Assembly (NCBI GenBank): GCA_003153755.1
Contig: PMBG01000168.1
Location: 5,805 to 40,612 of the forward strand
Source: Chloroflexota bacterium
GTDB lineage: Bacteria; Chloroflexota; Limnocylindria; Limnocylindrales; CSP1-4
Reading direction: 5' to 3'
Length of the DNA: 34,808 nt
The notes beneath the pieces were generated by a model. That model saw only the letters and a list, made by a program, of their open reading frames with translations. It ran no database searches and was not told the DNA's origin. The translations under genes were made by a program, and so were the position numbers. Shown here in pieces: positions 7,195 through 33,031 of this stretch (positions are counted from its first letter, which is position 1; the number at the start of each line of letters is the position of its first letter).

Positions 7195-7239
7195 GAACCG
7201 CCCGGTAACCCGGCGCGGGGATCCGAAGGAGTAGCGGCC

Positions 7240-9141
7240 ATGGCTATGAGCGAGCACCAGGCTCCTGCGGGCGAGGCTCCTGCGGGCGAGGAGCCAACAG
7301 GCGGCCAGCCTGTTGGCTTTGGCGAGGCTCCTGCGGGCGAGGCTCCTGCGGGCGAGGAGCCAACAGGCAACCAGCCTGTTGAAACGGAGGCGATGACGGT
7401 GGGCGCTGCCCTTGCGGATGGCCTTGCCCGTGCCGGTGTCAAGATCGCGTTCACGGTCCCCGGAGAGAGCGTCCTCGGATTGCTGGAGGGGCTCTCGGCC
7501 CGGCACGTCCGCCTTGTTGCCACCCGTCACGAGGCTTCCGCGGCGTTCATGGCGGGAGCCGTGTCACAGCTGACCGGTCGTCCCAGCCTTTGTATCGGAA
7601 CACGTGGGCCGGGCGCAGCCAATCTCGCGATCGGCCTGCACGCCGCCCGCGCCGATTCGGCACCGGTGATCGCGATCGTTGGAGGAGTACGGCGCAGCTT
7701 GCAGGGTCGGGAAGCGTTCCAGGAGATGGACGTCGTCCGCGCATTCGATCCGATCGTCAAGTGGGCTGCCGAGCTGAGGGACCCGGCGGATGCCGCCTCA
7801 ATCGTGGAGAGGGCTGTCGCGTCGGCAACCAAAGGCAGGCCGGGTCCCGTGCTCATCTCGGTACCGGCCGACGTGTTCGACGTGGTTGCACCCGGCGGCA
7901 ACGGCCACTCACCAGCGCTCCATCTCGAACACCACAACGATCCAGATCCGATCCTCGTCCGCAAGATCCTGCACCTCCTCACCGGCGCTGAGCGCCCGCT
8001 GATCCTTGCGGGCGCGGGGGTGCTTCGAGCCCGCAGTACGGATGCCCTGGTGAAGTTCGCCGAGACGATTCGGGTCCCGGTAGTTGCCTCGTGGCGGCGG
8101 GGCGATGTCTTCCCGAACGACAACCCGCTCTACCTGGGAATGACCGGAAACGGCGCTCCGCCCAACGTCCTCGAGCGCTTGGAGTCGGCGGACGCATTGC
8201 TCGTCCTCGGCTCCCGGCTGGGTGAGATCACAAGCTTCGGATACCAGATTCCCGGACCGAGCACACGCTGGGCGCAGGTGGACCTGGAGCCTCGGGGAGC
8301 CGCTTCGGCCAACAGACCAGAAGTGGTCATGGCGGCGGACGTCGCCGCCTTCCTGAGGGTGGCACAGCGAGTCCTGGCGCGCGCCGCCTTCGATGCGGCC
8401 GCCTTGGATGCGAGGACGGCCGCCAACCTGGTCGATCGGGCGGCGTATGAAGTGGCCTCTATCGTCGACGATGAAGCCTGGGATGGACCCGGAGTACATC
8501 CGGGACGTGTGATCGCCACTCTCGCCCGAGTACTCCCGCCCGAGACGATCATCACAACCGATGCGGGCGACTTCGGCACGTGGGCTGCCCGCGGATACAG
8601 GTTCCATCGGCCGGGCACATTCCTTGGATCGACCGCCGGCCCGATGGGCTATGGCTTGCCGGCGGCCATCGGGGCTACCCTGGCGCGACCGGGCAGGCTT
8701 GCCGTGGCACTCGCCGGGGACGGCGGATTTGCTATGACAATGGCCGAGATAGAGACGGCGGTTCGCGAGCGGGCCAAGGTGGTTGCGATCGTCTTTGACA
8801 ACGGCCGCTACGGCGCCATCTCGCGCAGTCAGGCCGGCCGCGGGGACCGGACCGGACTCGCCACTCATCTGGGCTCGGTCGATTTCGCTCAGATAGCGGA
8901 CGCCTGCGGTGCGCTGGGTCTCTCCGTCAACAGCGACGAGGAGTTCGAACCAGCCCTCCGGCAGGCCCTCGAAGCCGGAAGACCAGCGGTGCTGCATTTG
9001 GCCCTCGACGCGCGATGGACGACGCCGGGCGTCGCTCCCGCGCCGGACGTCGCCGCGGATGCGCCCGACGCGAGTGAGCCGCCGGGTGCCGTCGATCAGG
9101 GCGATCCGGCAGAACCGGAAACGACGCTCTCGGAGCAGTAG
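7240..9141 (+). CDS. Thiamine-diphosphate-dependent enzyme, acetolactate synthase-like
   Basis: Member of the ThDP enzyme superfamily (acetolactate synthase, benzoylformate decarboxylase, oxalyl-CoA decarboxylase). The catalytic part has the usual order: Pyr domain from MTVGAALADGL at residue 52 with the activating Glu98 (RHEASAAFMAG), a central domain, and a PP domain with the ThDP/Mg motif GDG at 493-495 ending at Asn521 (FDNGRYG). The exact reaction cannot be read; branched-chain ALS is only one option. The first 51 residues are a repetitive Ala/Pro/Gly/Glu extension encoded by a 66-bp tandem repeat, and the last 35 are acidic and disordered-looking. AAGGAG at 7226-7231 supports the ATG at 7240. 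A start at 7393 would remove the repeat but has only a poorly spaced GGAGG. Confidence 0.88.
   Translation: MAMSEHQAPAGEAPAGEEPTGGQPVGFGEAPAGEAPAGEEPTGNQPVETEAMTVGAALADGLARAGVKIAFTVPGESVLGLLEGLSARHVRLVATRHEASAAFMAGAVSQLTGRPSLCIGTRGPGAANLAIGLHAARADSAPVIAIVGGVRRSLQGREAFQEMDVVRAFDPIVKWAAELRDPADAASIVERAVASATKGRPGPVLISVPADVFDVVAPGGNGHSPALHLEHHNDPDPILVRKILHLLTGAERPLILAGAGVLRARSTDALVKFAETIRVPVVASWRRGDVFPNDNPLYLGMTGNGAPPNVLERLESADALLVLGSRLGEITSFGYQIPGPSTRWAQVDLEPRGAASANRPEVVMAADVAAFLRVAQRVLARAAFDAAALDARTAANLVDRAAYEVASIVDDEAWDGPGVHPGRVIATLARVLPPETIITTDAGDFGTWAARGYRFHRPGTFLGSTAGPMGYGLPAAIGATLARPGRLAVALAGDGGFAMTMAEIETAVRERAKVVAIVFDNGRYGAISRSQAGRGDRTGLATHLGSVDFAQIADACGALGLSVNSDEEFEPALRQALEAGRPAVLHLALDARWTTPGVAPAPDVAADAPDASEPPGAVDQGDPAEPETTLSEQ
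7261..7380 (+). repeat. 66-bp tandem repeat with paired hairpins inside the ThDP enzyme gene
   Basis: Two copies with 66-nt spacing (7261-7314 and 7327-7380, joined by GFGE codons) encode APAGEAPAGEEPTG plus GQPV or NQPV. Each copy itself repeats GAGGCTCCTGCGGGC. Each also contains two adjacent inverted repeats: GGCTCCT/AGGAGCC with a 7-nt loop (7275-7295 and 7341-7361), and AACAGGC/GCCTGTT with a 5-nt loop (7296-7314 and 7362-7380). The second stem is extended to 9 bp in copy 1 (7294-7316). The frame is kept throughout. The two copies differ only in the second loop and at the edges. Confidence 0.9.
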
Positions 9142-31771: not shown

Positions 31772-33031
31772 GTGAACGACATCAGCATGGGCCGCCGGGC
31801 GCTTGCCGGCCTTGTGGTTTTGGTGGCATGCCTGGCACTGGCTGGAGGGCTCGCTCTCGGGATATCGGCGGCCCGTACGCCGTCCGGCGCCGCGAGCGGC
31901 AGTCCGATCGCCGCTCCGAGCGCCGCGAACGCCAGTCCGAGCGCCGCTCCGACCTTACCGCCCTCCGCGTCGCCACGCCCGAGCGTGTCGCCAACGCCAG
32001 GTGCCACGGCGACCGCCGTCGAGGCGACCGTCGTCGCCCGCGTCCCCAACTGCCAGAACCCGCTTGGCTGGGACTACGCGGTTTCCGGCAACGACCTCTT
32101 TGTCGTGTGCGACGCACTGAATGCGCCCAGCCCGTATAGCGGGCCCGGAGGCCCCTACATTGCGCGGGTGGACCTGACTACTAGCAGGGTCACCGCCACG
32201 TACAGGTACAAGACCCCCATGACCTACATCGAGGGTTTGACCGTGGAGAACGGCGGCCTCTGGTTCGAGGGCATCTTCGGCGGCTCGGGCTGTTCGGGCG
32301 ACTGCAGGGGCTGGCGCCGCGTCGACCGGTTCGACATCGCGACCGGCAAGACCACAGTCGAAATCCCCGATGTCGGGCTGGTGGGCAGCTCTTCCGGATA
32401 CATCTGGGTCAGGGACTCGCTGGTGGAGAATGGCCCGCTGCGGAAGCTGGACCCCAAGACGGGCCGGGAGGCGGGCCGCATCCCGTTCAACATGGGCGGC
32501 GCCCAGTTCGCCTGCGGGTCGTTCTGGGGCACAACAGGGACCACCCTGGGAACGCCCGACACAACCACAACCGTGGCACACATCGACCCGGTCCAAGGAA
32601 CGGTCCTGGCCTCGTTCACCCTGCCGGGCCGGTTGCGTGGCCTGGAGTCGGTCGGTAAGGAGTGCTGGGCGACCGTGGAGCCGGGCGGAGACGACCCGTA
32701 CACCGCCTACTATGCCGACCACTTCGTTAGGATCGGCAATTCCGGGGTGGAGGACTCCAGCCCCATATTCCAACTCGAGAACCACTCGGGTACCACCTCG
32801 GAGGCCTACCTGGACATCCAGGCCGGTTCGTTCTGGCTGGTCCACGACGACGGCGTGGCAACCGCGACCCTGCAGCGAGTCGACCCCCTTACGTGGCAGC
32901 CCACGGGCACGCAGTGGCAGACCGGCGCTTCCGGCTACCAGGGTGATCCGTTCGCGATCATCGGTGGATCGGTCTGGGTGTTCGACAACGACGGCGGGAT
33001 CTCGCGCCTGGACATTCCGCTCGGCTCATAG
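31772..33031 (+). CDS. Exported beta-propeller-like protein of unknown function
   Basis: About 419 residues. An N-terminal membrane anchor or signal segment (LAGLVVLVACLALAGGLALG) and a Ser/Ala/Pro linker with a 33-nt DNA repeat precede a beta-rich domain. The domain repeats blades of about 40-50 residues that resemble PQQ/Vgb-type propellers: WDYAVSGNDLFVVCDAL, IARVDLTTSRVTATYRYKT, GGLWFEG, RFDIATGKTTVEIPD, GYIWVRDSL, LRKLDPKTGREAGRIPF, GSFWLVHDDG, GSVWVFDNDG. It may bind a ligand or partner outside the cell. GAGGGG about 10 nt upstream favours GTG 31772 over GTG 31754. It follows the two lipoproteins after a gap of about 85 nt. Confidence 0.78.
   Translation: MNDISMGRRALAGLVVLVACLALAGGLALGISAARTPSGAASGSPIAAPSAANASPSAAPTLPPSASPRPSVSPTPGATATAVEATVVARVPNCQNPLGWDYAVSGNDLFVVCDALNAPSPYSGPGGPYIARVDLTTSRVTATYRYKTPMTYIEGLTVENGGLWFEGIFGGSGCSGDCRGWRRVDRFDIATGKTTVEIPDVGLVGSSSGYIWVRDSLVENGPLRKLDPKTGREAGRIPFNMGGAQFACGSFWGTTGTTLGTPDTTTTVAHIDPVQGTVLASFTLPGRLRGLESVGKECWATVEPGGDDPYTAYYADHFVRIGNSGVEDSSPIFQLENHSGTTSEAYLDIQAGSFWLVHDDGVATATLQRVDPLTWQPTGTQWQTGASGYQGDPFAIIGGSVWVFDNDGGISRLDIPLGS
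31901..31952 (+). repeat. Short 33-nt repeat in the linker of the propeller gene
   Basis: AGTCCGATCGCCGCTCCGA (31901-31919) recurs 33 nt later (31934-31952) with one difference. It encodes SPIAAPSA and SPSAAPT within a flexible linker. Confidence 0.6.

Follow-up and report, generated by a model that had tools for sequence, protein, structure and literature searches.

What is the DNA that opens an otherwise standard acetolactate-synthase-type gene in a Chloroflexota bacterium, and how did it come to lie there in frame? The window analysed here, a stretch of 34,808 nucleotides, contains a ThDP-dependent enzyme gene whose first codons hold a tandem 66-nt repeat (Table 1). The earlier note had described this repeat together with paired hairpins, and had read them as a palindromic element tolerated in coding DNA, or as a translated mRNA structure controlling expression, rather than as the outcome of selection on the protein. 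The repeat is real: positions 7259-7315 and 7325-7381 are 96% identical over 57 nt in a 66-nt register, and TRF reports a period of 66 (score 174). TRF also reports a period of 15, so the 66-nt unit is composed of 15-nt units, and after the protein start MAMSEHQ each copy encodes EAPAG EAPAG followed by a diverged, palindrome-bearing stretch, EEPTG GQPVG FG. The top NCBIfam match of the host gene, NF006052 ('thiamine pyrophosphate protein'), scored under the family cut-off.

Table 1. Features of the ThDP enzyme gene and of its N-terminal segment (window coordinates).
Feature	Position	Strand	Basis and remarks
ThDP-dependent enzyme gene, acetolactate-synthase type, 633 aa	7240-9141	+	Pfam TPP_enzyme_N/M/C
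Shine-Dalgarno-like AAGGAG, 8 nt 5' of ATG 7240	7226-7231	+	sequence reading; AAGGAG/GGAG at the same place in most insert-free orthologues
In-frame inserted segment, codons 8-52	7261-7395	+	N-termini of orthologues; 20/20 others without the segment
66-nt copy no. 1	7259-7324	+	self-comparison and TRF
66-nt copy no. 2	7325-7390	+	self-comparison and TRF
Two exact 15-nt units (GGCTCCTGCGGGCGA), EAPAG frame	7260-7289	+	sequence reading, genus pattern search
Two exact 15-nt units, EAPAG frame	7326-7355	+	sequence reading, genus pattern search
Hairpin 1, GGCTCCT-N7-AGGAGCC	7275-7295 and 7341-7361
Hairpin 2, AACAGGC-N5-GCCTGTT	7296-7314 and 7362-7380
Palindrome AGCCAACAGGC-GGCCA-GCCTGTTGGCT, 11-bp stem	7292-7318	+	sequence reading; within the genus common only to G000:C27
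Palindrome AACAGGC-AACCA-GCCTGTT, 7-bp stem	7362-7380	+	sequence reading; 1 mismatch to the genus-search pattern

The ThDP enzyme is present in all 21 genomes of the genus, at 69-78% identity, and the other 20 orthologues have an N-terminus of about 11 residues (e.g. MSMTENQGATT) with the conserved TVGAAL directly after it; none of them carries the insert. With respect to the orthologous MSMTENQGATT/TVGAAL junction the window gene has a net gain of 41 codons, and since this number is not divisible by five the window site must have been altered after the insertion. The earlier note had allowed that homologues might share the extension without the palindromes, or that translation might begin at 7393. 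The first did not occur, as the homologues lack the extension altogether, and the second is unlikely: insert-free orthologues keep AAGGAG or a similar motif and an ATG at the position equivalent to 7240, and an ATG equivalent to 7393 is found in only 2 of the 21 orthologues (the window and G020), so that a start at 7240 is the simplest reading. The C-terminal tail of the enzyme (window 9000-9141), rich in Asp, Pro, Glu and Ala, seems to be variable too, with orthologue matches ending at differing points. A tree of the ThDP gene, built for dating the spread, left 11 of 19 inner branches open, and the repeat-bearing species form no single resolved clade. Elsewhere in the window, at 31878-31952, a 33-bp tandem repeat (score 115) lies in a protein that has no Pfam match, within its Ala/Pro/Ser-rich N-terminal region, which is predicted to be secreted or anchored.

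Comparison of genomes, all of them MAGs, indicated that the spreading unit is the 15-mer GAGGCTCCTGCGGGC (encoding EAPAG) inside the 66-bp repeat, and not the 66-bp repeat itself. The 17-mer GGCTCCTGCGGGCGAGG, with at most one mismatch, was found at 155 places in 10 of the 21 genus genomes against 7 places for the reversed control, which is far beyond chance; G009 alone accounts for 75 of these places, in 21 clusters. A similarity search (E 0.001) matched 13 of 61 genomes, namely 12 of the 21 of the genus, 1 of 16 from other genera of the same family and 0 of 24 more distant ones, and nine of the genus genomes gave no match in either the similarity search or the 17-mer search. In the window genome (G000) two further loci were found, a 73-bp stretch with the palindrome (C27, 88% identity) at the C-terminus of an ABC transporter gene and about 1.5 units (C52) at the C-terminus of SufC. 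Arrays range from single units up to about eight. In G009 and G011 an EVPAG variant of the unit is repeated at several loci, which speaks for the copying of whole blocks. Among the genomes of 84,980 species the exact 23-mer was present in 23 stretches, 22 of them in MAGs named Chloroflexi bacterium and one in an Acidobacteria-labelled MAG. The latter is a six-unit EAPAG array (L043:1732-1823), the sole place in that genome, which may reflect a mislabelled bin, a misbinned contig or a transfer, three origins that look alike in these data. The exact 23-mer was also present in two IMG/VR contigs (L064:4632-4648 and L065:1185-1201), near the C-terminus of a predicted gene and in the EAPAG frame; these are possible carriers, or chance matches. 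Literature searches of titles and abstracts returned no published description of the 15-mer repeat.

To place the arrays with respect to genes, we extracted the surroundings of the clusters (60 regions), predicted their genes using a simple codon model that had learned from the window genes, and examined 63 arrays, 29 of them multi-unit (at least two overlapping 17-mer matches) and 34 single. All 29 multi-unit arrays lie in predicted genes, 24 in the EAPAG frame, four in the ASPAG frame, which is the 15-mer read from the opposite strand (in UvrD, an acyltransferase, signal peptidase I and PrmA), and one as SLARR, with none intergenic; at a coding fraction of 0.905 this is only mildly beyond expectation. 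Two pairs among the 29 are not independent, L097/L105 and L101 (start)/L112, the latter being identical over the compared stretch and from the same sample. Thirteen arrays are near the C-terminus, eight near the N-terminus and eight internal (one cut by a contig end). According to Pfam and NCBIfam the hosts include CinA, a DNA polymerase III delta' type protein, CoaBC, BirA, PolX, an NYN protein, an M16-type protein, UvrD, LigA, Obg, an S1 protein, ABC ATPases, TsaB, an acyltransferase, PrmA, signal peptidase I, SufC, the C-terminal part of adenylosuccinate lyase, CheA, a class-III aminotransferase and a glutamyl/glutaminyl-tRNA synthetase; no family was found in either database for the hosts at L102 (two genes), L117 and L145. 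The hosts are dozens of unrelated, mostly housekeeping genes of one uncultured Chloroflexota group, whose proteins would thereby gain floppy loops and tails. The 34 single matches are distributed as EAPAG (16), SLARR (8), intergenic (6), ASPAG (2) and ARLLR (2), and because 22 of them carry a mismatch and eight read SLARR, some may be chance matches. Three SLARR units, at L139 (G001), L147 (G016) and L115 (G018), share the site VSLARRSLIDF in a protein that we take to be GatB, where the unit may be native or stem from an old insertion.

Orthologues were compared for filled and empty states of each site. The array in Obg of G018 separates VLDLG from TRRPTIADVPG, two motifs that are 3-10 residues apart at 19 other loci, and the alignment with the solved structure 1udx breaks exactly at this site; in BirA of G009 the array is flanked by WPNDIVA and RKVAGIL, with a gap at the site in the alignment with the solved BirA. 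The insertion is exactly 30 bp in TsaB of G011 when compared to G009 and G020, and exactly 15 bp at the C-terminus of an ABC ATPase of G009 when compared to G013. Filled sites are rare: one of 20 loci for Obg, one of 16 readable (17 fetched) for BirA, one of 20 for PolX and one of 21 for TsaB, and exact units in two of 19 readable loci (20 fetched) for SufC; among the 19 ABC ATPase loci fetched, G009 and G011 have exact units and G006 and G012 altered ones. This pattern is best read as insertion and not as loss elsewhere, most clearly at the internal sites. Array length changes in whole units, with about one unit in SufC of G000 and six in that of G001. L097 and L105 (G009:C28 and G009:C232), near-identical copies of one gene region that may be a strain mixture or a duplication, differ in a block of 107 bp and, inside the array, by 30 bp. 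The BirA loop that holds the EAPAG array in G009 contains unrelated in-frame repeats in G003 (L189) and G005 (L190), and other in-frame repeats were seen in G014 (L211), G011 (L213) and G018 (L214) in the PolX loop that likewise holds an EAPAG array in G009; the expansion of unrelated repeats there indicates that these loops are generally permissive.

The 15-mer thus occurs in many unrelated genes and in both orientations, beside homologous sites that are empty, and its arrays grow and shrink by whole units. We consider it probable that the segment in the ThDP gene is an in-frame insertion from a dispersed 15-bp coding minisatellite, which would spread by short-match copying and be shaped by slippage and purifying selection. 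Template switching, or recombination between imperfect matches, would carry a copy of an existing array to a place where another gene happens to match it over a few bases (GGCGAGGC-like seeds). Slippage after landing would add or remove units, and the frame would survive since 15 is a multiple of three. Purifying selection would leave landings only in the ends and loops of proteins, where a floppy insert resembling XTEN or PAS does little harm. In make-up, EAPAG resembles XTEN, a polymer used as a disordered tail. ASPAG resembles the PAS polymers, which are likewise used as disordered tails (PMC3715784). In the window genome, of two sites, the start of the ThDP gene and the end of the ABC transporter gene, one would have received from the other a copy of a derivative with the 11-bp palindrome between its units, and the 73-bp stretch that the window and G000:C27 have in common at 88% supports such block copying.

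Several observations bear on these steps. The arrays end at many different phases, their ends being somewhat concentrated at GGCGAGGC, and neither fixed termini nor a transposon-like end was found. Seven hand-picked empty sites match the unit over 4-6 bases, with a mean of 5.3 against 3.7 for random gene sites (p 0.005 against random and 0.017 against loop-like sites), values that are biased upwards, as both sites and orthologues were hand-picked and alignment puts gaps beside matches; the test favours short-match copying but is suggestive only. Within genes, GGCGAGGC (n=97) falls 56 times in the EAPAG frame, 10 times in the ASPAG frame and 31 times in the other four, and seeds account for part of the frame preference. 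In turn, 28 of the 29 multi-unit arrays are in these two frames, both of which give small and hydrophilic peptides, against 31 of 97 seeds outside them (about 2e-4, hand-computed); that arrays hardly ever occupy another frame suggests that harmful landings have been removed. Copying at short matches would also fit a genus without detected MutS: MutS_I (PF01624) was found in none of the 21 genus genomes (six of them at least 90% complete) and in 11 of 14 control genomes, and lack of MutS eases both slippage and recombination between imperfect matches. MutS loss was rejected as the trigger of the spread, because MutS is undetected in all 21 genomes and cannot explain the difference between repeat-rich and repeat-free species.

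Among the alternatives, the one that survives best, with a small probability, is that of a palindromic mobile element, RPE- or MITE-like, moved by a hairpin-recognising enzyme, the 15-mers being its flanks. The paired hairpins of the earlier note are present as described at both 66-nt copies, and the second stem of copy 1 extends to 11 bp (AGCCAACAGGC/GCCTGTTGGCT), so that its bases overlap hairpin 1. This stem is kept with a variable loop at two loci of the window genome, and in-frame insertion into genes is a known habit of the Rickettsia palindromic elements (RPEs; review PMC10969869). However, the 15-mer forms palindrome-free arrays elsewhere in the genus, the phases of their ends vary, and at the examined sites no target-site duplication could be told apart from the repeat itself. 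Hairpin 1 arises incidentally where AGCC follows the 15-mer, and it is only partly kept at the second locus, L002. The pattern AGCCAACAGGC-N5-GCCTGTTGGC(T) was found at two loci of G000 alone, in three copies if the shorter-stemmed second one is included (loops GGCCA, AACCA and CGCGC), which are too few to judge selection on the stem; with up to three mismatches, genus-wide matches outside G000 were at control level. On this genus-wide search the palindrome was rejected as the dispersed element, and the part of the earlier note that took the palindrome pair for the element is not supported. Judging from these matches, the palindromes are a local elaboration confined to the window genome, and would mark a multi-unit block copied between two genes of one genome.

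Slightly less probable is that EAPAG tails and linkers are useful peptides that evolved many times through local slippage. Nearly all arrays being in the EAPAG or ASPAG frame agrees with this, as do similar native loops nearby (DAPAG in BirA, EPAVG in PolX) and the other repeats expanded in the same two loops. The codon data contradict it: 78 of the 82 EAPAG pentapeptides in called genes are spelled GAGGCTCCTGCGGGC, which uses GCT (8.5% of Ala codons) and CCT (8.0% of Pro codons), and a single spelling with two rare codons at such frequency indicates that the DNA was copied. The units of any single array lack independence, but different arrays have the spelling in common, and the synonymous drift expected of a linker under peptide selection was not observed in this set. 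In addition, the same DNA forms antisense arrays, the hosts have no common function and most orthologues lack the repeat. In this regard the general claim of the earlier note, a DNA-level element tolerated in coding DNA rather than protein-level selection, is borne out by the 20 insert-free orthologues, by identical DNA in dozens of unrelated genes and by the single synonymous spelling.

Its second suggestion, a translated mRNA hairpin that controls expression of the ThDP gene, we regard as very unlikely. Two stable hairpins do lie just 3' of the start codon, but the RNA fold of 7220-7400 is not significant (z -1.58, with 15 of 200 shuffles at least as stable), the orthologues lack the segment, and at its second locus (L002) the palindrome lies 3'-terminally in a different gene; across the genus most copies are palindrome-free, and some arrays are antisense to their gene. 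DNA folds of the single 66-nt copies (z -1.38 and -1.53) and of L002 (z -0.88) were no better than shuffles, and mRNA or DNA structure as a selected feature was rejected on this range of z (-0.88 to -1.58). An assembly or binning artefact, with short reads misjoined at the repeat, is equally improbable: all genomes are MAGs, long arrays exceed short-read resolution and one stretch is identical in G009 and G018 from the same sample, but in Obg, BirA, PolX and TsaB the sequences on either side of the array come from one and the same gene, a read is longer than arrays of 17-47 bp, and the repeat is present in differently named MAG sets (fen_10xx, GL140_3, Chersky).

The dispersed coding minisatellite that we favour partly resembles several known systems. 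The RPEs, reportedly described by Ogata et al. in 2000 and 2002, are the closest known kind in behaviour. According to the review PMC10969869, they form ten families of palindromic elements of about 150 bp, with 44 insertions in one genome, many of them in frame. Like them, the 15-mer is present as many near-identical DNA copies in frame in unrelated conserved genes of one genus, absent from orthologues and apparently tolerated as extra peptide; unlike them, it is tandem, non-palindromic outside the window genome, and read in two frames from two strands, and where RPEs and MITEs have defined ends and units of about 100-150 bp it has a 15-bp unit that ends at many phases. PARCEL repeats are likewise variable-number tandem repeats inside ORFs and dispersed within genomes; by their definition, against which the 15-mer was compared, they have a 25-residue amphipathic motif with dyad symmetry, mostly in ORFs of unknown function and membrane proteins, whereas the 15-mer encodes five hydrophilic residues in housekeeping enzymes. 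Ordinary intragenic VNTRs (minisatellites) of bacteria are of local origin and differ from gene to gene. The 15-mer shares with them frame-keeping length change in whole units, as in the G009 copies and SufC, but it is one DNA word common to dozens of genes. MIRU and STRR are also short, dispersed and tandem; they are mainly intergenic, in contrast to the multi-unit arrays of the 15-mer.

In-frame selfish DNA in conserved genes is known from Rickettsia, and the Chloroflexota repeat is an independent case from another phylum, with a far smaller, non-palindromic unit. Because empty and filled versions of the same sites coexist, including single-unit steps (+15 and +30 bp), one can study the movement of very short repeats for which no enzyme is visible, and also the way in which essential enzymes, Obg, BirA, TsaB and UvrD among them, acquire new disordered loops. 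We tentatively propose, as a possibility somewhat short of an even chance, a self-propagating coding minisatellite: a 15-bp word that propagates between genes through short-match recombination, in a lineage with no detected MutS, and that survives as frame-keeping, disordered peptide from either strand, EAPAG (XTEN-like) or ASPAG (PAS-like). If true, this would be a spreading repeat adapted to life inside essential genes, which repeatedly gives rise to new protein loops and tails.
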